NCBI GenBank assembly: GCA_016934335.1
Contig: JAFGTC010000227.1
Location: 1 to 34,919 of the forward strand
Length of the DNA: 34,919 nt
Direction: 5' to 3'
From: Candidatus Omnitrophota bacterium
Lineage (GTDB): Bacteria > Hinthialibacterota > Hinthialibacteria > Hinthialibacterales > Hinthialibacteraceae
Part shown: positions 4,096-14,031 of the stretch, in pieces
Position numbering within the stretch: the stretch's first letter is position 1
Layout: the number at the start of each line of letters is the position of its first letter
Position numbers and translations under genes: made by a program
The notes under the pieces: generated by a model
Database searches by the model: none
What the model was told of the DNA's origin: nothing
Seen by the model: only the letters and a program-made list of their open reading frames with translations

Positions 4096-4557
4096 TCAAG
4101 CATCCATCACCTTTTGAATTTCCCGGATCAAATCCTCTCCCGCGATGGGTTTGGTCAAGTACGCGTCGGGCTTTTCGACCTGGCCTCTCGCAGAGACGCG
4201 GTTGAAGAACTCGTTGTAGCTGCACAGCCCTTGTGAATCGGAATCCACCCCGGTCAGAATCACGATTTTTGTGTTTTTCAACTGCTGGTTGGTTCTGAGT
4301 TCTCTGTACAACTTGATCCCGGTTTTATCGGGCATCATCAAATCCAGGGTGATTAAGTCAGGAGTGTCATGATGGATGAAATACAATGCTTCTTTCGCGT
4401 TCAATGCGATGGTCGCCCGGTAGCCGTTGTCTTCCAAAACGACCTGGATGAAGCGCGCGAAAGGCAGATCGTCCTCGACGATAAGGGCGGTTTTCGTCTG
4501 AACAGGGGGTTGTTTTTGTTGGCTGATCGGTGTTTCGAGTGATGTTGCGCGGCTCAT
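4096..4557 (-). CDS. Single-domain response regulator (CheY-like receiver)
   Basis: 153 residues. After a disordered N-terminus of about 22 residues the protein is one receiver domain. It has the acidic pair in VEDD near 27-30, the phosphorylatable Asp in LITLDLMMP near 75, a Thr in ILTG near 101 and the conserved Lys in YLTKPI near 135. No DNA-binding or output domain follows, so it must act by protein contact, or as a phosphate relay or sink. The insert between beta-4 and beta-5 (about 102-128) is longer than in CheY. It is the last gene of a minus-strand run and lies 39 nt after the histidine kinase, its obvious partner. The Shine-Dalgarno AAAGGAAAG is good. Confidence 0.92.
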   Translation of the reverse strand: MSRATSLETPISQQKQPPVQTKTALIVEDDLPFARFIQVVLEDNGYRATIALNAKEALYFIHHDTPDLITLDLMMPDKTGIKLYRELRTNQQLKNTKIVILTGVDSDSQGLCSYNEFFNRVSARGQVEKPDAYLTKPIAGEDLIREIQKVMDA

Positions 4558-4596: not shown

Positions 4597-5967
4597 TTAT
4601 GAATATGTGGATCCCTGATGCGCAATCGGCGATAAAGAAGCGTGCGATTGATTGGGCGGCCGATCCAGGATCGGGAGGCGCATGACGACTCGGCACCCGC
4701 CTTGATGACCGGATTGAATGTCTATCTCGCCTCCGTGCTCCGATACGATCTTATCCGTGACGGCGAGTCCAAGACCGGTGCCTTTTTCACCTTTCGTAGA
4801 GAAAAAAGGAGAAAGCGCCTGCGATTGGATTTCGGGAGGGATGCCCGGCCCATTGTCTTCGACGTATAAATCGAACAGACCGTTTGTTCCGGCGTTCGAT
4901 CCGATCGTAACCACGCCCCGGTCGGCTTCACAGGCGTCGAGGGCGTTGTCGGTCAGATTGATCAACGCCTCGCGCATGCAGGCGGCGTCGACGACCACTC
5001 GCGGCATTGAATCGTCGAGCGCAGCAACCATACGAATTTTTTTGGATTGAGCTTTCGTTTGCATAACGGCCAGAACGGAATCGACCACTTCAGATAGTTC
5101 GATCTCTTCGTATTGAGGTTCGTGCTCCCGGCATAACGTCAACATTTTTACTACCAAATCCGAAATATAGCGATTCCCGTTTTTGACCATCTCCCACCCC
5201 TCACGGGTGCGATCGGGTAAATTCTGGGATAATCCGCTTTCGATGAGATATTCGCCGCCTTTGATCATGCCGAGGATGTTTTTAATGCTATGGGCGATGC
5301 CGGCGACCGTTTCACCGAGGGTGGAGAGGCGCTCGTGCTGCAGCATTTGTTTGTGAATCTGCTGCCGCTCCCGCGCGGAATGGCGGAGCCGGTGGACGGC
5401 GTTGTTGAATGAATCCACTAGGCTGATCAACTCATCGCCGCTGTGCGTCTTATAAACCCTGCAGTTCCGGCAGTCCGCGATTTTATTCGGGAAGCGTTCT
5501 TGAAGCGTCCCCGTACAGAGAGTGTTATCGACGAACCAGCATTTCTCCTCGTCATTTCCGAACGCGGGGCAGTCGCTGCGTTTGCATCCCAGAATTTCCC
5601 AACAGCGGACGTTTGGGCATGCATCGATCCGCACATCGTAATCGCCTAAACTGAACCGCTCTGCGGCTCGATTCACGTTCTTTAAGACGCCGAGCAGCCG
5701 ATTCGAAAATCTCCACGTCGCCAGCAAAACGATCGAGACCGTCAGCAAGGTTATGGCTTCCCATAAAGGAAAGTCGTTTGTATTTTTGTCAATAATTTTC
5801 GAAGCAATCCCGGCTAACGACAACAGGGCCGGCGCTGATAAAAAACAGATGAAAAAGAAAAGTTTTTCCCGTATCGTTTGTTTTCTCCAATGTCTCTCCA
5901 TCCGCTCGATCAACGGGATTCGAGTCAGGTGACGCCGGGGAAAAACTGTCGAAGACTGGGAATGCAT
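4597..5967 (-). CDS. Membrane histidine kinase with Cys-rich insert inside its HAMP domain
   Basis: 456 residues. Two transmembrane helices (about 36-57 and 68-85) are separated by only some ten residues, so there is almost no periplasmic sensor. HAMP helix 1 (about 87-113) is followed not by the usual short connector but by a Cys-rich insert: C117, C122 (in CWE), C128, C133 (in CPAF), C143 (in CW), C151, C166 and C169. HAMP helix 2 (DELISLVDSFNNAV) follows. This matches the so-called two-CW pattern. The kinase core has H226 in AGIAHSIKN, an N-box (LTDNALDACE), a G1 box (DNGPGIP), an F-box (FFSTKGEKGTG) and a G2 box (GLGLAV). The cysteines are placed to bind metal, an Fe-S cluster or haem, or to react to redox state on the cytoplasmic side. 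The gene follows the redox-complex genes by 16 nt and precedes the receiver gene. Confidence 0.92.
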   Translation of the reverse strand: MHSQSSTVFPRRHLTRIPLIERMERHWRKQTIREKLFFFICFLSAPALLSLAGIASKIIDKNTNDFPLWEAITLLTVSIVLLATWRFSNRLLGVLKNVNRAAERFSLGDYDVRIDACPNVRCWEILGCKRSDCPAFGNDEEKCWFVDNTLCTGTLQERFPNKIADCRNCRVYKTHSGDELISLVDSFNNAVHRLRHSARERQQIHKQMLQHERLSTLGETVAGIAHSIKNILGMIKGGEYLIESGLSQNLPDRTREGWEMVKNGNRYISDLVVKMLTLCREHEPQYEEIELSEVVDSVLAVMQTKAQSKKIRMVAALDDSMPRVVVDAACMREALINLTDNALDACEADRGVVTIGSNAGTNGLFDLYVEDNGPGIPPEIQSQALSPFFSTKGEKGTGLGLAVTDKIVSEHGGEIDIQSGHQGGCRVVMRLPILDRPPNQSHASLSPIAHQGSTYS

Positions 5968-5983: not shown

Positions 5984-7657
5984 TTACCGATGGCAGTAGG
6001 TACATTCGCTCATCGCTGCAATATTGCGTTTAGGACCTTCTTGATCGTGGCAGGCGATGCAGCGTGTGTGGTACGCTTCTTTCAAGCCGATGGCGCCCGA
6101 TTCCACATTCGATCTGTACATATCGTTATGGCAGTACGCGCAGGGTTTGAAGTCTTCGTTGGAATCGATCTGGATTCCCTGTTCCGTACCGCAGTGGCAT
6201 AAAATGCACGAATCGTCTCCGCCGAGCGCGTCGATCAGTTTTTGATGGGGAAAATCGCGGACGTCCTTGCCCATCCTGTCTCCGTTCAATGTGATGACAT
6301 CGGGCGCTTCTCTGTAAATATACGATCCGCCGGCGTCAGTGTATTGGCGTTCGACAGACGGCTTGACAGGCGACGATAGAATCCTGCGCCCGTGTACGGC
6401 GACGCTCGGAACCGCGGCCGCCGTCAGCCCGATTCCGAGGACGACGATCAATGACAAACGGTACAATCGTTGATAGCCGGCGTGCCCGGGGATGTAAAAA
6501 GCCGTTTGCCGCTCCTCCGGGGGCATCGCTTTGACGTATTGATGGGAATCGTTTTGATCGATGAAAACGGGAAAATGTTTGACGATGGCGTTGAATATCA
6601 ATACGGACATGGCGACCAGCATGAGGGAATACGAGATTTCCATCCATGTCGGAAAGTAGGTGGAGCCGGTCGCGGCAAAGGTTCCCACGAGCCCCACGTT
6701 CATTCGGTTCAGAACCGTTCCGGCGATAATGAAAATGCCGATGTATATGACCGCCCTTTGGCTTCGGCGAATCGAACGGAAAGAGAACAGGATAGCGGGC
6801 GCCAAGGCGAACACCAGCAACTCGATGAGAAAGAGCAGGCTGTTGCCCGAACCGTCCCACAATCTTGCAAGACTTCCGCGTACAGCCAGATCGATGATTT
6901 TCAGGAATATGTATCCGTATAGAATGAACGATATGAATAACGCTAGCGGCGAATAATCATCGGGGCCGAATTTCCGCTTCCATCGCCGGGCCGAGGCGAT
7001 TCCCAGCAGCATGACGACCGTGATTCCCGCCGATATGGCCGAGAGAAGAAAGAAAAAAGGAAGCATCTGCGTATGCCAGAGAGCGTCGAGTTTTCCTTTC
7101 GTGATCAGAAACAACGCGCCTAGAGAAGATTGATGCAGCGTGGACAGCGCCACCCCGGCAATGACGACAGGCAAGGTTAATTTCTTGAAAAATCGCTCCA
7201 GACGCCGCCAGCCCGCCCCCTCGCAAACGACGGGAGTGAATTCGAAAAACAGGACGGTCATGTATAGAATGACGCACCAGGCGACTTCGAAGAGCACGGA
7301 GTGGATTTGGGGATAGATCAGGATGTGCCAGAATCGCTCCGGGCGGCCCATATCGAAAGCCAATCCCACGCAGTAAAGACCGTAGCCCAGACAAGCGCTG
7401 AGAACGGCGAGGCGAGCGACCGGTTTATAGCGTTTGATCTGAAAAATATAAACGACGGCGGCGATCGTGAAGCCGCCCGCCGCCAGGGCGATTCCGCAGG
7501 CCACGTCGAACACGACGCCCAATCCCCACGGCGTCACGTCGTCCAGCCGGGTGACTCCTCCCAATCCTCTCCAGAATCGGAAGAAAGCGACTGTCGCTCC
7601 CACTGCGACGATGAACCAGCAGATTTCATTCAGGTAAGAACGCTTTTCTTTATACAT
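5984..7657 (-). CDS. NrfD/HybB/DsrP-like integral membrane subunit fused to a tetrahaem cytochrome c domain
   Basis: 557 residues from ATG 7657, which has a GGAGGGG Shine-Dalgarno and overlaps the previous stop by 8 nt; a longer frame starting 39 nt upstream is less likely. Residues 1 to about 440 carry roughly ten hydrophobic helices of the NrfD/HybB/HmcC/DsrP family, which exchanges electrons with the menaquinone pool. After the last helix (about 405-425) a hydrophilic tail contains four CxxCH haem c motifs: CILCH near 484, CAYCH near 506, CIACH near 533 and CTYCH at 552-556. Family members normally end after the helices and use a separate cytochrome (DsrJ, HmcA). Covalent haem c attachment occurs outside the cytoplasm, so the tail should face the periplasm. 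The gene is in an operon with the ferredoxin, cytochrome b and CCG subunits. Confidence 0.92.
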   Translation of the reverse strand: MYKEKRSYLNEICWFIVAVGATVAFFRFWRGLGGVTRLDDVTPWGLGVVFDVACGIALAAGGFTIAAVVYIFQIKRYKPVARLAVLSACLGYGLYCVGLAFDMGRPERFWHILIYPQIHSVLFEVAWCVILYMTVLFFEFTPVVCEGAGWRRLERFFKKLTLPVVIAGVALSTLHQSSLGALFLITKGKLDALWHTQMLPFFFLLSAISAGITVVMLLGIASARRWKRKFGPDDYSPLALFISFILYGYIFLKIIDLAVRGSLARLWDGSGNSLLFLIELLVFALAPAILFSFRSIRRSQRAVIYIGIFIIAGTVLNRMNVGLVGTFAATGSTYFPTWMEISYSLMLVAMSVLIFNAIVKHFPVFIDQNDSHQYVKAMPPEERQTAFYIPGHAGYQRLYRLSLIVVLGIGLTAAAVPSVAVHGRRILSSPVKPSVERQYTDAGGSYIYREAPDVITLNGDRMGKDVRDFPHQKLIDALGGDDSCILCHCGTEQGIQIDSNEDFKPCAYCHNDMYRSNVESGAIGLKEAYHTRCIACHDQEGPKRNIAAMSECTYCHR

Positions 7658-8507
7658 CCGATTCCCCTCCTTCCGATTCCGGTTCGCCGTTTGCAAGCTG
7701 ATTGCGCCGTTGTATGATCCAGCATAAACCGGTCATTCCAATTGCCGCGCCCAGTCCAATGGTTGGCACTTTGGCCAGCCATTTGTGCGTGTACAAGGGC
7801 AATGGATCGACCCCCAGCCTGTCTTTGAATCCCAAAAAGTCGAGTGGCGCCTCCGGCTTGGTAATATAGAGAACCGATGTTCCTCCCGCCTCGGTCTCCC
7901 CGTAGACGTGGTTCATGTAGCGGCCCGGGTGGTCTTGAATGCGGCGGTGCGCCTCTTCCAGCAGTTCTTCGCGCTCTCCGAAAATGGTGGCTTGTTCGGG
8001 GCAGGCTTCGGTGCAGGCCGGCTTCTCTCCATCCTGCAGGCGTTCAAAACATAACGAACATTTTTGGACGATGGGAAACGGCGTCCCCCATTCGTAACGG
8101 GGAATGCCGAAGGGGCATGCGTACATGCAGTAACGGCACCCGATGCATTTGTGAGATTCGTACACGACTGCGCCGGTCTCTTTATCTTTTCGGAAGGCGC
8201 CGACCGGACAGACGGAGACGCAGGTGGGATTGAGGCAATGGAGACATTGTTTGCGAACGAAAGCAGACTGCTCGAATTCTTTGACATTCTTATCGGTGAC
8301 GTTGGGAGGGTTGTCGTATTCTCGTCCGGGGACATAGACGCGGCCGTGATCGTACAGGACGACTGTCGTCCAGTTCATTTCGGAAAGATCGTCGCCTGCG
8401 TCTTGGCTGGGATGCGTGATTTCACCCTGGTTGTGGAGCGAATAACAAGCCTCCTTACATTTGTCGCATCCAATGCAGCGAGTGACGTCGGTTAGAATTC
8501 CTTTCAT
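7650..8507 (-). CDS. Four-cluster ferredoxin subunit with C-terminal membrane helix (DsrO/HmcB/HybA-like)
   Basis: 285 residues. Sixteen cysteines form four [4Fe-4S] motifs as in DsrO, HybA, NrfC and PsrB: CIGCDKCKEAC near residue 11, CLHCxxxxCVSVCP near 88, CIGCRYCMYACP near 121, and CSLC paired with CTEACP near 150-168. A hydrophobic helix near 248-266 (PTIGLGAAIGMTGLCWII) can anchor the C-terminus. Unlike DsrO or NrfC there is no Tat signal: the protein begins MKGILTDVTRC. The side of the membrane is therefore uncertain; it is either cytoplasmic or carried out with a partner, as FdnH is. Start and stop overlap the flanking genes (ATGA overlap with cytochrome b; 8-nt overlap with the NrfD gene), so translation is coupled. 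It probably wires the NrfD subunit to another redox module. Confidence 0.92.
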   Translation of the reverse strand: MKGILTDVTRCIGCDKCKEACYSLHNQGEITHPSQDAGDDLSEMNWTTVVLYDHGRVYVPGREYDNPPNVTDKNVKEFEQSAFVRKQCLHCLNPTCVSVCPVGAFRKDKETGAVVYESHKCIGCRYCMYACPFGIPRYEWGTPFPIVQKCSLCFERLQDGEKPACTEACPEQATIFGEREELLEEAHRRIQDHPGRYMNHVYGETEAGGTSVLYITKPEAPLDFLGFKDRLGVDPLPLYTHKWLAKVPTIGLGAAIGMTGLCWIIQRRNQLANGEPESEGGESDV

Positions 8508-9202
8508 GATTCAGTTCCTTTCGCCAGAGGGGATGTGTAAGTGTAGTCGCAGTCTGTGACCAGTTTTGAACCTAATTCCGCGCAAACGCGGCTGAAAGGA
8601 AAGAAGATGCAGTGGGATAATTTGGTGAACGGGATTGCAATCATGAGCGCTTCGGCGCTGAGAATATGAAGCAGCAGCATGAGGTTGTATGAAAAAGGAT
8701 TCCACGAAGCGCTCGCTGCGTATCCTGTCAGGAAAGGAAGTAGGATCATCACAAGAACGACTATATCTTCGGTCCGCGTGAAGGTTCGAACCAACCGTGA
8801 CGTTAGGCGAACGACCAGCAAGATCGAAACGCCTGCAATGGTGAGGATCGTCAGAACATCGGCGATCCCGTTTGGCAGGGCCGGCAATGTTATTCCCGTC
8901 GAAGCGGCCCACAGACTCACATGCTCGGCAAGAAAGAGAGGAACCAAAACAAGCCCGATATGAAACACATAAGATATGACCGTAAACACGTCCTGGCTGC
9001 GCCAGGCTTGATGAATGGGAAACAACCATATGGCGATGTCTCGAACGATCGCCTTCCGGTTCAGCGATCGATCCCTCGAACGCCTCCAGGCAATGACGGC
9101 CGGCCATAAAATCAACACAAACCGCCGGAAGAGCCCCGCAACAAGCAGTGCGAAAGCCAAACGGAACAACGGACCTTGCGTAAATTGTAAAATCTCTTCC
9201 AT
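8504..9202 (-). CDS. NarI/DsrM/HmcE-like dihaem cytochrome b subunit
   Basis: 232 residues from ATG 9202. An in-frame ATG at 9211 directly abuts the AAGGGG Shine-Dalgarno, so the second ATG, 9 nt on, is preferred. Five or six hydrophobic helices are visible. Histidines lie at positions expected for haem b ligands in the NarI family: PIHQAW, YVFHIGLV, EHVSLW, LLLHIL and KLSHCIF. Such subunits oxidise or reduce quinol and pass electrons through two b haems to or from a cytoplasmic partner, here the CCG protein encoded 23 nt upstream. The stop overlaps the ferredoxin start in an ATGA. NarI, DsrM, HmcE and TmcC are all related; the neighbouring CCG gene favours the DsrM/HmcE/TmcC group. Confidence 0.9.
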   Translation of the reverse strand: MEEILQFTQGPLFRLAFALLVAGLFRRFVLILWPAVIAWRRSRDRSLNRKAIVRDIAIWLFPIHQAWRSQDVFTVISYVFHIGLVLVPLFLAEHVSLWAASTGITLPALPNGIADVLTILTIAGVSILLVVRLTSRLVRTFTRTEDIVVLVMILLPFLTGYAASASWNPFSYNLMLLLHILSAEALMIAIPFTKLSHCIFFPFSRVCAELGSKLVTDCDYTYTSPLAKGTES

Positions 9203-9225
9203 CAGATTCATCCCCTTTAATCACT

Positions 9226-10605
9226 CTATGCGACGGCCGTTTCGATGTGCGAAGGCTTCTCTTCGGATAAGGCTTTCGCCATCAAATCGTGGATTCCCAC
9301 AACGCTGACGGGCAGTTTGTAATAATCCACCACTTCGCGCAGCATCTTTTTGCAGTTGGCGCAGGGCGCGCACACGATTTCCGCATTGGATTCGGCGATC
9401 TGTTTCGCTTTTACTTTGCCGGGAACTTCAAGCCGGAACTTCTCCTGGTCTTCGGTGATGACGATTCCGCCGCCGCCGCCGCAGCAGTAGTTGTATCGCC
9501 CGTTGGGGCGCATCTCGACGTATTCCATGCTGCACGCTTCCAAGATCTCTCGCTGCGGTTTGAAGATGCCGCATCCGCGGACGATATTGCATGGATCGTG
9601 GAGAACGATTCGTTCTGGATTCTTTTCGCGTTTCGGGGAAACGACTCCCTGCTGGATGGCCTCGGAGGTGACTTGCAGGATGCTTTTTACTTCGATGCCG
9701 CCGGCGTGCAAATGAGATTTCCAATATCCCAAAGCCGCGCGAGTGGCGTGACCGCATTCCCCGATAATGACCGTTTTTACCTTCAACCGCCGCGCTTCCT
9801 GGATGATCTTGTCGAGCACGGACATGAGAACGCGGTCGTCGTAAAAAAGTCCGTAATTGATGGCGTCGCAATACTCTGTGCTGACCGTCCAATCGACGCC
9901 CATACGGTCCAGCACCATGGAGATTCCCATCAGCGTTTCGGCTTCCATCATGTAGTCGCTGACGGGCGCGAGCATGAGATAATCTGCGTTTTGCTTGTCT
10001 CTGGGGATCGTGCATTTTACGCCATAGGTGTCATAAATATCCTCTTCGAGAAAATCAAGCGTATCGACGATGGCCGCTTTTGGAAATGCGCTGGTGTTCC
10101 CAATGCCGAAAATCTGCTCGAGGGTGCTTTTCCCCATGTTTTGAGGGACAAGACCCATCTCGCTGAGAACCTGACGCCCAAAACGCGCCACCAGCCGGTG
10201 GTCGATTCCCATCGGGCAGCTTTCCGTGCACCGCCGGCATAAGGTGCAGCGATACAGGCTTTCGATCAGGTCTTTTAAGTTGAACTGCTTTCGTTCTTCC
10301 ATCGTACTCGAGCGGTGGAGAATGGAGTTTCCGTTGCTTTCGGGAAGGAAGAATTCTCGATAGAGACGGATAATCTCTTCCGTCCGGAAATGCGGCGTAT
10401 CTTTGAAATCTCCGGTTTCCTGAAACACTTGACATTCGCGGGAGCATCGCAGGCAGCCCGTGCAGGTTTGCGAGTAGATGGAGAGAGGCAAACCATAATT
10501 GCTGTCGCACAACACCTTGTCCATTGCGCGAATGAATTCATCCAGCGTATCGTCTTCCACAGGCTTCATCAATCGCGGCCAGTATTCAACTTTTTCGCCC
10601 ATCAT
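9226..10605 (-). CDS. CCG-domain Fe-S protein (DsrK/HmcF/TmcB/HdrD-like)
   Basis: 459 residues. Two N-terminal [4Fe-4S] motifs are visible: C48-C51-C54-C58 (CTGCLRCSREC, not followed by Pro) and C120-C123-C126-C130 (CTLCRRCTESCP). The C-terminal half carries CCG domains. The first is degenerate (GECGHA near 285). The second is complete, with HDPCN near 340, NYCCGGGGG near 380 and CAPCANC near 423. In heterodisulfide reductase HdrD and in DsrK such motifs bind the special catalytic [4Fe-4S] cluster. DsrK-type proteins are cytoplasmic and bind the DsrM-type cytochrome b; their natural acceptor is a thiol/disulfide or DsrC trisulfide in sulfur metabolism. No DsrC gene is in the window. This is the first structural gene of the complex, 24 nt after the HTH gene. 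Confidence 0.93.
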   Translation of the reverse strand: MMGEKVEYWPRLMKPVEDDTLDEFIRAMDKVLCDSNYGLPLSIYSQTCTGCLRCSRECQVFQETGDFKDTPHFRTEEIIRLYREFFLPESNGNSILHRSSTMEERKQFNLKDLIESLYRCTLCRRCTESCPMGIDHRLVARFGRQVLSEMGLVPQNMGKSTLEQIFGIGNTSAFPKAAIVDTLDFLEEDIYDTYGVKCTIPRDKQNADYLMLAPVSDYMMEAETLMGISMVLDRMGVDWTVSTEYCDAINYGLFYDDRVLMSVLDKIIQEARRLKVKTVIIGECGHATRAALGYWKSHLHAGGIEVKSILQVTSEAIQQGVVSPKREKNPERIVLHDPCNIVRGCGIFKPQREILEACSMEYVEMRPNGRYNYCCGGGGGIVITEDQEKFRLEVPGKVKAKQIAESNAEIVCAPCANCKKMLREVVDYYKLPVSVVGIHDLMAKALSEEKPSHIETAVA

Positions 10606-10629: not shown

Positions 10630-11103
10630 TCATTCGATTTTCACGTGCGGCTTCATCTCGACTTCTTGCGTTTCCATATCGAGCGATTGAACGCTCTCCT
10701 GCATTTCGACTCCCGCCCACTTTTGAAAATATGCGCATTCATTACAGTTGGAACAAAGCCACTCCGCCTTGGGGATCAGGGATCGCAAATAAAAGCAATT
10801 GAAAGCCATGGATTGAAACACCGGACATCTTTCGCATTTTGAATCGGGCGTTGGCTTCCCGCATCCCGAATGCGATTCCCAACAGTAACAGCGGGTTTCC
10901 AATTCCTGATCCAGCAAATCCGTGCTCATCCCATGACGTCTCATGAAATGATGAAGATCGTCAACCAGAATCCGAAACTGGCCGCCGACCGTTCGCTGCG
11001 CCGGCAGGCAATCCGCCTTGATCCAATTCGCGATCGTATCGGATGACACGAAGCAATAACGGGCCGCCTGGCCGGTTGTTAATGCAAGAAGATTCTTGTC
11101 CAC
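10630..11103 (-). CDS. Cys-rich helix-turn-helix (excisionase/MerR-like) regulator
   Basis: 157 residues from a GTG at 11103 (AGG about 11 nt upstream). Residues 8-55 form a winged-helix fold of the excisionase/BldC type: LTTGQAARYCFVSSDTI, then IKADCLPAQRTVGGQFRI. The rest is a Cys-rich module with C72, C74 (in CWE), C81, C90, C93 (in CP-x-F), C103, C117, C120 and C123 followed by AYFQKW. The same order of motifs (CWE, C, CP-x-F, then C-x2-C and an aromatic-Lys end) occurs in the HAMP insert of the kinase at 4597-5967. It is the first gene behind the predicted sigma-54 promoter and lies 24 nt before the CCG gene, so it is likely an operon-encoded redox- or metal-responsive regulator. Target and ligand are unknown. 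Confidence 0.85.
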   Translation of the reverse strand: MDKNLLALTTGQAARYCFVSSDTIANWIKADCLPAQRTVGGQFRILVDDLHHFMRRHGMSTDLLDQELETRCYCWESHSGCGKPTPDSKCERCPVFQSMAFNCFYLRSLIPKAEWLCSNCNECAYFQKWAGVEMQESVQSLDMETQEVEMKPHVKIE

Positions 11104-11455: not shown

Positions 11456-12790
11456 CTATGAATCGGATTCGGGTTCTTTCAGTTCGTATAGTTTGATTTT
11501 TCGCCAGAGGGTTGACGGATCAATATCCAACTCGGACGCCGTTTTTTGGCGGTTCCACTGGTTTCGGTTCAGAGCGTTGAATATATGATGCGCTTCGATC
11601 TCGGCCAACGTCGCGGAATGCATGTCTTCGTGAGTTTCGTGTTCGGAAAAGATTCGCGGCAGGTGATGCAGTTCGATTTGTCCTTCCTTGCATAGAATAA
11701 AAGCGTGTTCGATTGCATTTTCCAGTTCGCGGATGTTGCCGATCCATTCGTGGTGCATGAAGCGATTCAAGACGCAGGAACTGATCCCTGTAATTTCCTT
11801 CCCTTTCAGATGATTGAAACGGGTTATGAAATGTTCAGCGAGTAAAGGGATGTCTTCGAGGCGTTCGCGCAGAGGCGGAAGAGTCACTTCGATCACGTTG
11901 ATTCGATAATACAGGTCGGAGCGGAATAAATCTTCTTGAACGAGCGACAGCAGATTCTTGTTGGTTGCGGCGAGAACTCGCACGTCTGCATGGATCGAAT
12001 CCGTCCCCCCCAGAGGTTCATACCGTTTTTCTTGCAGCACGCGAAGCAGACGCACTTGGAGGGCGGGCGACATATCGCCGATTTCATCCAGAAACAATGT
12101 CCCTCCCTCGGCTAATGAAAAGCGCCCCACTTTTTTCTTTTTGGCGTCCGTAAAGGCGCCTTGTTCGTATCCGAATAATTCGGATTCCAACAGCGTGTCG
12201 GGAAGCGCGCCGCAGTTGAGAGAGATGAAAGGCTTGTCCTTGCGAGGGCTGAGTTGATGGATGGCCTTCGCCACAAGTTCTTTCCCCGTGCCGCTTTCTC
12301 CTTGGATTAAGCACGTCGAATCGCTTTCCGCTATTTGCGGCAGTAGAGCGGCGATCTCGCGCATCTTCACGTTGCTGCTGACGAGATCGCCGATTTGAAA
12401 CTCCTTGCGCAGTTCTTTGCGCAGCGCCTCTATGATCGATCGGTCGCGGAACGTCTCGACGCCGCCGATGATCTCGCCTTTTTCATTCATAAGCGTTGAT
12501 GTGCTGATGCAAACGGGAATGACTTTCCCGTTGCGGGTATGGATCGTCACGTGTTTGTTGACGATTGGCTTCCCCGTTAGGATCGATTCTTTGAGAGTGC
12601 AGTTCTGCCTGCAGATGTTGGCTTGGAAGATTTCACAACAAGGACGATAGAGAGCTTCTTCTTTCGAAATTCCCGTAATATGTTCGGCGGCGCTGTTGAA
12701 CCAGGTGATGCGGAAATCTTCATTGACCGTAAAAATGCCGTCGGCGGCGGAATCTAATATTTGTTGCATTAAAGAAGAGTGGTTTTTCAT
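11456..12790 (-). CDS. PAS-containing sigma-54-dependent activator (NtrC family)
   Basis: 444 residues. A PAS domain (about 5-115) carries a cysteine cluster, C51-C52, C60 and C64, followed by TLKESILTGK. The AAA+ domain (about 135-365) has Walker A GESGTGKE, a loop-1 motif GAFTDA instead of the common GAFTGA, Walker B GGTLFLDEIGDM, and the R-finger region DLFRSDLYYRINV. A Fis-type HTH closes the protein (about 400-438, NRQKTASELDIDPSTLWRKIK). Such proteins open sigma-54 promoters using ATP after a sensor-domain signal. There is no receiver domain, so control is probably direct through PAS. It lies directly upstream of the predicted sigma-54 promoter at 11238-11253, its likely target, and 122 nt downstream of the phosphatase gene. 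Confidence 0.95.
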   Translation of the reverse strand: MKNHSSLMQQILDSAADGIFTVNEDFRITWFNSAAEHITGISKEEALYRPCCEIFQANICRQNCTLKESILTGKPIVNKHVTIHTRNGKVIPVCISTSTLMNEKGEIIGGVETFRDRSIIEALRKELRKEFQIGDLVSSNVKMREIAALLPQIAESDSTCLIQGESGTGKELVAKAIHQLSPRKDKPFISLNCGALPDTLLESELFGYEQGAFTDAKKKKVGRFSLAEGGTLFLDEIGDMSPALQVRLLRVLQEKRYEPLGGTDSIHADVRVLAATNKNLLSLVQEDLFRSDLYYRINVIEVTLPPLRERLEDIPLLAEHFITRFNHLKGKEITGISSCVLNRFMHHEWIGNIRELENAIEHAFILCKEGQIELHHLPRIFSEHETHEDMHSATLAEIEAHHIFNALNRNQWNRQKTASELDIDPSTLWRKIKLYELKEPESDS

Positions 12791-12912
12791 GAAATCTTCC
12801 GAATGAATTATGGGGTTTTGCTTTGTCTTTAGTGTAACATCAGATTGGAAAGGAGCATCGGTGATTTACGGATTGTTTCTGAAGACGCCGGATGATCGCC
12901 GGTCCCCGGTCT

Positions 12913-14031
12913 CTAATCGCCGGTATAGTGAATTTCGATCATGGTGAGATCATCTTCCAAACGGATTTGATCGGAGTAATGGAGCAAGGCTTTTTCGACG
13001 GCCTCCAACGAAACCGCGGTTTGCGGATAATCCATGGATTGAAGCAGATCCACCAACCCATCCGTATCCAAAAGACAATGATCGGCGTCAAAGATTTCCA
13101 ATGCGCCGTCGGTGACAAAAAGAAGACGATCGCCTTTTTCAAGGTACAGATAGATGGACTCATACTTCGAATTTTCTTTCATCCCCAGCGCAAAGCCGGA
13201 GCAGCGTATTTCCCGGAAGCGCCCGCTTGGGCTGATATGCAGCGGGCAGGGATTTCCCGCGCTGACAAGAGTCAACCGGCGGGCGGCGAGGTCAATGTGG
13301 GCGTACATCGCCGTGGCGAAGGATTGATTGTCGCGAAAGAGCTTATACATGCGATTGTTGATGGTTTCTACGAATTGATCCGGGGATGAACAGAGATGTT
13401 TATACTCTTCATACAGCGATTTGAAATGCATCGTGTACAAAGCCGATGATATTCCATGCCCCTTTACGTCGGCCAGGAGAACGCCGTATCGATCCTGGTC
13501 GATCGGTTCGATGGCGTAGAAATCTCCTCCCACAAGATTATGGGGGATATAGTGGGTGCGAATGCGGATGCGCGGATCTTCGGGAACATCAAAAACAAGG
13601 GCTTGCCGCTGGATCTTTTGCGCGTGCTGCAGTTCTTTGAATAACTCGCTATAGTTCCGGAAGTTTTCGATGCCGCCTACGATCTCTCCCGCCTGATTTC
13701 GAATGGGCGCTACGCTCACTTGCACCGGGATGCGCGGCCCTTTTTTCGATTGCGCGAAAATCAGCAGAGGCGAAGCGCTGCTTTTTCCTGTGGCCATGGC
13801 GCGATGCAGGGGGCAGAATTCCTCTCCGCAAAGAGCGTGATTATCTTTATCCACATGGTTCAAGAGGTTGTCGCCGCATTTGCGGCCGACGACCTCATTG
13901 GCGCTCCAGCCTGTGATCGCTTCGGCGGAGCGGCTCCAATAGAGAATTCGCCTCTCGAGATCGGTGACATAAATCCCGTCGTTGATGGAGTCGAGCACTC
14001 TTTGGAAGGGAAAATCAGCTGAAAGAGACAT
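12913..14031 (-). CDS. PAS-SpoIIE/RsbU-type PP2C serine phosphatase
   Basis: 372 residues. A PAS domain (about 6-125) has cysteines C52, C68 and C73 (in CPLHRAMATGK), a pattern close to that in the neighbouring sigma-54 activator. A short linker helix (about 126-145) leads to the SpoIIE phosphatase domain (about 150-370), with metal-binding signatures LVGGDFY, LLADVKGHG, FVTDGALE and LEDDLTMIEI. Such enzymes dephosphorylate anti-sigma-factor antagonists in partner-switching systems. No STAS or anti-sigma kinase gene is in the window, so the target is unknown. It is the first gene of the minus-strand regulatory run and is divergent from the prepilin gene. Confidence 0.92.
   Translation of the reverse strand: MSLSADFPFQRVLDSINDGIYVTDLERRILYWSRSAEAITGWSANEVVGRKCGDNLLNHVDKDNHALCGEEFCPLHRAMATGKSSASPLLIFAQSKKGPRIPVQVSVAPIRNQAGEIVGGIENFRNYSELFKELQHAQKIQRQALVFDVPEDPRIRIRTHYIPHNLVGGDFYAIEPIDQDRYGVLLADVKGHGISSALYTMHFKSLYEEYKHLCSSPDQFVETINNRMYKLFRDNQSFATAMYAHIDLAARRLTLVSAGNPCPLHISPSGRFREIRCSGFALGMKENSKYESIYLYLEKGDRLLFVTDGALEIFDADHCLLDTDGLVDLLQSMDYPQTAVSLEAVEKALLHYSDQIRLEDDLTMIEIHYTGD

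Follow-up and report, generated by a model that had tools for sequence, protein, structure and literature searches.

The route by which electrons reach DsrC is an open point in the bioenergetics of sulfate reduction, and models based on Desulfovibrio make use of periplasmic hydrogenases, free cytochrome c3 and the Qrc, Hmc and Tmc complexes. For both Hmc and Tmc, a role in electron exchange linking cytochrome c3 with DsrC or ferredoxin has been proposed (PMC4215793), and HmcB, the ferredoxin of Hmc, is integrated by way of the twin-arginine translocation (Tat) system and anchored by its tail (PMC10924467). We have analysed a stretch of 34,919 nucleotides (contig JAFGTC010000227.1 of assembly GCA_016934335.1, deposited as a Candidatus Omnitrophota bacterium; hereafter the window) which contains an operon of four genes at positions 5984-10605 encoding subunits of the types found in Hmc and DsrMKJOP. 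This operon is a new variant within the Hmc/Dsr superfamily, in which the fusion of a haem domain to the NrfD-like subunit is an unusual trait. With a probability of roughly 0.6, its products form one membrane complex, a menaquinone/cytochrome c:CCG oxidoreductase, with DsrC of the sulfite-reduction pathway as its most likely partner.

Subunits of the operon and their cofactor motifs

The initial annotation recognised four tightly packed genes at these positions, and our analysis confirms all four subunit types. The genes lie on the minus strand in the order CCG-NarI-FeS-NrfD, with a gap of 14 nucleotides between CCG and NarI and overlaps of 4 nucleotides (NarI/ferredoxin) and 8 nucleotides (ferredoxin/NrfD). 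The NrfD fusion starts at ATG 7657; TTG 7696, the start of the longest open reading frame, was not used. Subunits were typed with Pfam domains and NCBIfam profiles, the threshold for membership being each profile's own curated cut-off.

9226..10605, minus strand: CCG protein (HdrD/DsrK/TmcB-like), predicted cytoplasmic Fe-S subunit, 459 residues (Pfam Fer4_8 and CCG; NCBIfam; Cys conservation; tree)
8504..9211, minus strand: NarI/TmcC/HmcE-like dihaem cytochrome b membrane subunit, 235 residues (NCBIfam TmcC and HmcE; conserved His)
7650..8507, minus strand: HmcB-like ferredoxin with four [4Fe-4S] clusters, 285 residues, C-terminal tail anchor, no Tat signal (HmcB model; 16 Cys)
5984..7657, minus strand: fusion of an NrfD/HmcC-like ten-helix part, helix 11 and a tetrahaem cytochrome domain, 557 residues (HmcC model; helices; haems)
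6395..6451, minus strand: extra helix 11 of the fusion, residues about 403-421 (hydropathy; positive-inside rule; AlphaFold helix 394-416)
5987..6340, minus strand: c3/c7-like tetrahaem domain of the fusion, CxxCH at 484, 506, 533 and 552 (PF02085, PF14522; alignments)

The CCG protein contains two ferredoxin-type cysteine clusters (C48/C51/C54/C58 and C120/C123/C126/C130), and the cysteines of the non-cubane cluster are kept in its CCG motif (C339, C374-C375, C415 and C418, spaced C339-x34-CC-x39-CxxC). DsrK is the best-scoring curated model for this subunit, though at 274.7 bits it falls under the cut-off of 400; the scores with TmcB and HmcF are 191 bits (cut-off 735) and 162 bits (750). 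The NarI-like subunit scores 156 bits with TmcC (cut-off 240) and 147.5 bits with HmcE (275). Its residues His84, His97, His182 and His200 are invariant in all 22 homologues compared and would therefore hold two haems b spanning the membrane. The 16 cysteines of the ferredoxin are likewise invariant (22/22 homologues).

The label "DsrMKJOP/Hmc-like" given in the initial annotation fits the membrane part in its Hmc half and not in its Dsr half, since the NrfD part scores 294.5 bits with HmcC (cut-off 550) against 43 with DsrP (350), and the ferredoxin 238 bits with HmcB (420) against 106 with DsrO (200). In the fusion protein, the ten NrfD helices are followed by one more helix and by four CxxCH motifs. 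Its positive-inside count of lysine and arginine (21 versus 9) places the N-terminus of NrfD inside, and helix 11 consequently brings the haem domain into the periplasm in the predicted topology. The membrane part of the AlphaFold model matches the fold of ActC. Of the nine residues in the proton path proposed for QrcD (PMC6303296), seven are identical in the NrfD part, and alignment by eye matches one more (Glu); at the position of the last, N100, both the fused and the Hmc proteins have Arg. The identity of the QrcD sequence taken for this alignment was confirmed.

A clade of operons with NrfD-haem fusions

Eighteen operons, from several phyla that include Acidobacteriota and Calditrichota, have the same order of genes. 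It differs from that of dsrMKJOP, as had been suggested at the outset, and the operon in the window includes no separate cytochrome gene. Among these operons (L, G and C numbers are our labels for loci, genomes and contigs), the haems of L005 are in a separate open reading frame, L091 is truncated within NrfD by the end of its contig, and L007 has NarI and ferredoxin merged in one open reading frame. Nearly all fused operons have six haems, and four are found only in the window and in SURF_12 (L001), a genome of the OLB16 lineage formerly misfiled as Omnitrophota (PMC10066038); OLB16 corresponds to Hinthialibacterota (PMC11382960), and by way of SURF_12 the window's genome is assigned to it as well. 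As SURF_12 carries the same operon with 69-71% identity, the window operon is not an accident of assembly. The window's genome and G003, from the same family, each possess one six-haem and one four-haem operon, the second copy in the former (L029:8451-13268, contig C169) having six haems and ~43% identity in the CCG subunit. G036, a reference sulfate reducer that carries Tmc, Hmc and Qrc, belongs to a phylum in which the fused complex is rare: a full-length fused match occurs in 2 of 395 genomes and the four-gene operon in one of these. Wider sampling around G201 covered two genomes only.

Phylogenetic analysis of the CCG subunit groups the 18 fused-operon proteins (the window and 17 others) in one clade (support 92/91), with separate clades for DsrK (100/100) and for TmcB/HmcF (99/99). 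In a concatenated tree of all four subunits, the 18 fused operons separate from the four Hmc operons included with support of 100/100, and the four-haem pair is sister to the other sixteen. In the CCG subunit, the first cluster has the spacing CxxCxxCxxxC in the window, L001 and Hmc, and its fourth Cys is shifted in the six-haem group, which fits this sister position. With NrfD alone, neither a single fused clade (p-AU 0.42, approximately unbiased test) nor a placement of the window with HmcC (p-AU 0.21) is rejected, so that of the two trees proposed in the initial annotation the CCG tree sets the window apart from the DsrK and TmcB/HmcF clades and the NrfD tree leaves its place unsettled. Together, the CCG and concatenated trees support the suggestion that the operon forms a branch of its own within the DsrMKJOP/Hmc superfamily. 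None of the reference Hmc and Dsr loci examined contains the NrfD-haem fusion, and no published description of it was found in the open literature searched; subscription reviews lie outside that scope and an earlier mention is possible.

The haem domain of the window aligns with haems 3-6 of the six-haem paralogue in the same genome. An internal loss of haems 2-3 was considered and rejected on this alignment (score 110 for haems 3-6, versus 48 for the first module). Of the distal histidines of the six-haem form, two near haems remain in the four-haem form (FPH and AYH), and the CxxCHH of the six-haem form has become CxxCHC in both four-haem members, where the homology of the final Cys is uncertain because aligners may pair it with the first Cys of another haem. 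Haems with a Cys ligand are known from TsdA and SoxA-type proteins (PMC9562282, PMC4423706). As two distal histidines are lost and a conserved Cys stands at the position of a c3 ligand, a thiolate-ligated haem is possible in the tetrahaem domain, and is offered as a hypothesis only.

Two further sets of CCG proteins were encountered. One protein (L027:17087-18520; DsrK 352 bits, below cut-off) is encoded inside the sat-apr-qmo-dsr island on contig C196 of the window's genome, and the CCG tree places it as the sister lineage of the fused clade; its gene is preceded by a kinase-like and two response-regulator-like open reading frames and followed by one resembling FAD-type oxidoreductases. The other set is a tight clade (100/100) of DsrK-like proteins, mostly of ~535 residues (L003:198-1802, L034:10116-11732, L095:3035, L096:14334, L100:6908 and L097:4068), from dsr-bearing genomes of several families. 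The two of these that were scanned score 332-334 bits, below the DsrK cut-off.

Electron partners and direction of flow

The window is the whole of contig C19 in a 5.96-Mb assembly that is 94.3% complete and 4.4% contaminated, and absences from the genome are limited accordingly. No dsr or hydrogenase genes are present in the window, so the initial description of an operon with no cognate partner nearby is correct for the window; it does not extend to the genome. Searches of the genome, family by family with profiles, for dsrAB and dsrC located dsrA (604 bits) and dsrC on contig C196, together with aprA (933), sat (396), qmoC (451), dsrK (731) and dsrP (487). The other dsr, apr and qmo genes on this contig were named from size, sequence and order only, and the open reading frame called QmoB by position matches HdrA-type models. 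The DsrC protein has the two expected C-terminal cysteines, ending GACKIAGLPKPTGCV. A partner pathway therefore exists in the genome and the reading of a missing partner is rejected, while the exact donor and acceptor are left open, as they were before. Full Dsr-pathway genes have already been reported for OLB16 genomes (PMC10591310, PMC9040765).

The association with the Dsr pathway extends to other organisms. The fused operon, or at least the NarI-FeS-fused-NrfD part of it, is present in ten of the 386 genomes sampled, and dsrA is found in seven of these ten compared with 27 of the 376 others (Fisher p = 2e-6, ignoring kinship). DsrK-type matches occur in all nine fused-operon genomes tested, seven of them over the cut-off. 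The three fused-operon genomes that lack dsrA all have DsrK over the cut-off, and in one of them (G037) a cluster of dsrMKJOP type lies close to the start of a contig. In G019 and G306 the DsrK matches are only weaker and fragmentary.

Judging from the models put forward for Hmc, Tmc and Qrc (PMC4215793, PMC6303296), an exchange of electrons between menaquinone/cytochrome c and DsrC appears likely. In the mechanism that we infer, the four subunits would assemble as a single complex that connects c haems in the periplasm, menaquinol or both with a thiol/disulfide partner in the cytoplasm, the electrons moving either inward or outward. The NrfD-fused tetrahaem domain would be the entry or exit for periplasmic electrons, and the NrfD part would bind a quinone, presumably menaquinone, and take up cytoplasmic protons. 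Electrons would cross the membrane by way of the dihaem cytochrome b and reach the CCG subunit, where the non-cubane cluster may carry out two-electron chemistry on DsrC.

Several points weigh against this proposal. Direct evidence for an interaction with DsrC is lacking, and we know of no biochemistry for the fused clade. The AlphaFold model of the fusion has a mean predicted local distance difference test score (pLDDT) of 58, with most of the haem domain below 50, and thus supports no claim about haem ligands. No obvious periplasmic donor enzyme was found, and no periplasmic hydrogenase was detected in the genome. Hydrogenases, which the initial annotation had proposed to search for, are present elsewhere in the genome, but the two NiFe enzymes found are Mvh/Hdr-like and Hox-like by their neighbours and hence probably cytoplasmic. 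Nor was a formate dehydrogenase detected, since just two molybdopterin oxidoreductases were found, one inside a nuo operon and one ActB-like.

The side of the membrane on which the ferredoxin lies is a further difficulty. Reference HmcB proteins have a Tat signal, whereas none was found on the ferredoxins of the window or of the other fused operons, and the first cluster of the window ferredoxin begins at residue 11 with no RR. Yet the charges flanking its tail are HmcB-like, in conflict with the missing signal, and the side of the ferredoxin, and hence its role, is unsettled. Tail charge was rejected as an indicator because the Tat-less and Tat-bearing groups share the same bias (3.6 versus 3.3 lysines and arginines in the C-terminal flank). 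The ferredoxin is either cytoplasmic with an inverted tail or exported with some partner; a QrcD-like quinone site would favour the outer side. Tat-less ferredoxins are more widespread than the fused clade, as they also occur in ferredoxin-NrfD pairs that have no CCG neighbour (L069:8695, L071:7412, L089:9124, L090:6827, L092:5710, L093:6784 and L113:10108); in L069 and L071 three haems are fused to NrfD.

It is possible, though on the unlikely side, that ferredoxin or reduced DsrC feeds electrons into the CCG subunit and that these flow outwards, via cytochrome b, to the haems in the periplasm and on to periplasmic or outer-membrane cytochromes in extracellular electron transfer. Such a route has been proposed for the Hmc of D. 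alaskensis (ferredoxin to cytochrome c3; PMC4215793), and it would suit a genome with no QrcD over cut-off and no free cytochrome c3, periplasmic hydrogenase or formate dehydrogenase detected to feed the complex from outside. Contig C17 contains a cluster (L120:191-5113) of 9-, 4- and 11-haem cytochromes around a secreted non-haem protein of 464 residues, a possible porin-cytochrome conduit that would serve this route; however, the protein has no Pfam match and the porin is unproven. Direction is not fixed by sequence, and the QrcD-like residues of NrfD equally suggest quinone reduction from the periplasm. We regard as unlikely a cytoplasmic partner other than DsrC, either ferredoxin or an HdrABC/Mvh-type disulfide couple. 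Mvh/HdrA-like genes are present, and as the genome already has dsrMKJOP for DsrC and encodes three further DsrK-like CCG proteins (on C196, C169 and C19), not all of these need act on DsrC; against this, no other curated model comes as close to the CCG subunit as DsrK does, and the operon type is enriched in genomes with dsrA.

An Hmc or DsrMKJOP complex with a merely shuffled gene order would account for the identical subunit types and for the Hmc or Dsr model matches of all four, and NrfD alone allows a place beside HmcC. It is nevertheless hardly credible, given that every curated cut-off was failed, that the clades are separate and the split from the Hmc operons fully supported, and that the operon has neither an HmcA, HmcD-like or DsrJ gene nor a Tat signal on its ferredoxin; assignment to an established Hmc or Dsr complex was rejected on these cut-offs and trees. 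A bolder and quite improbable idea is that the fused clade represents a class of transmembrane complex not recognised before, which couples sulfite reduction directly to multihaem cytochromes of the outer surface or the periplasm, with a tetrahaem subtype that might use a thiolate-ligated haem for a periplasmic sulfur chemistry of its own.

None of the Desulfovibrio components named at the outset was detected in the window's genome, yet it encodes the complete sulfate-reduction pathway and two copies of the fused complex. If its parts act as suggested for a menaquinone/cytochrome c:CCG oxidoreductase, the complex could be the membrane link still missing for several uncultured phyla of sulfate reducers, and its fusion offers a handle, in one polypeptide, for testing that link. 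Elsewhere in the genome, at the ends of contigs C277 and C212 (L117 and L076), ActB-like and NrfD/ActC-like genes and a pentahaem cytochrome suggest an alternative complex III, so that aerobic respiration is possible in this genome.

Neighbouring genes and comparison with described complexes

The operon is flanked by genes of regulatory type:

4597..5967, minus strand: sensor histidine kinase, directly downstream of the operon (HATPase_c)
4096..4557, minus strand: single-domain response regulator (Response_reg; best NCBIfam match the DVU0259 family, 80 bits, below cut-off)
10630..11103, minus strand: HTH_17/excisionase-type DNA-binding protein, directly upstream of the operon (PF12728)

The histidine kinase is a probable regulator of the operon, and kinase- or response-regulator-like open reading frames were also seen by eye near the operons of L002, L004, L006 and L007. 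Between its membrane part and catalytic domain there is a Cys-rich segment (CWEILGC..CPAF..C..C..CRNC), possibly a redox or metal sensor. The HTH_17 protein, another possible regulator, has a counterpart upstream of the operon in SURF_12 (L001:6432-6971). Further upstream on the same strand (11456-14031) are genes for a PAS-sigma54 activator and a PAS-SpoIIE phosphatase, and a PAS-type regulator-like open reading frame also lies upstream in SURF_12. In three six-haem operons (L002:5992, L004:6093 and L006:1258) the position of the HTH_17 gene is taken by a gene that by eye resembles the NifX/dinitrogenase-cofactor family (IAVPCFxEEVAPLF).

The NrfD modules of Qrc, HybB and Nhc-Ohc share with the window the ten-helix NrfD and conserved quinone/proton-path residues, but they belong to complexes that have no CCG or NarI-like subunits and in which the cytochrome or hydrogenase is a polypeptide of its own (see PMC6303296). 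Tmc (TmcABCD) resembles the window in its pair of CCG and NarI-like subunits and its small c3-type cytochrome; in contrast to Tmc, the window has a ferredoxin and NrfD, and its subunits fail the TmcB and TmcC cut-offs. With DsrMKJOP it shares a CCG protein that scores best on the DsrK model, a cytochrome b, a ferredoxin, NrfD and c haems, whereas its membrane subunits are of Hmc type, there is no triheme DsrJ and the CCG protein falls in another clade; a genuine DsrMKJOP is encoded elsewhere in the same genome, on contig C196.

The module set agrees with that of Hmc (HmcABCDEF of Desulfovibrio), whose CCG (HmcF), NarI-like (HmcE), ferredoxin (HmcB) and NrfD (HmcC) components all have counterparts in the window, together with a periplasmic multihaem cytochrome and a tail-anchored ferredoxin. 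The window differs in having subunits below all the HmcB, HmcC, HmcE and HmcF cut-offs, a ferredoxin without Tat signal, a gene order of its own and no HmcD-like gene seen in the operon. The reference Hmc loci (L054, L055, L056 and L061) have genes for cytochromes of 15-16 haems, that of L056 scoring 389.6 bits with HmcA, just under the cut-off of 400. The window has no separate 16-haem HmcA; the four-haem domain fused to NrfD replaces HmcA (or TmcA).

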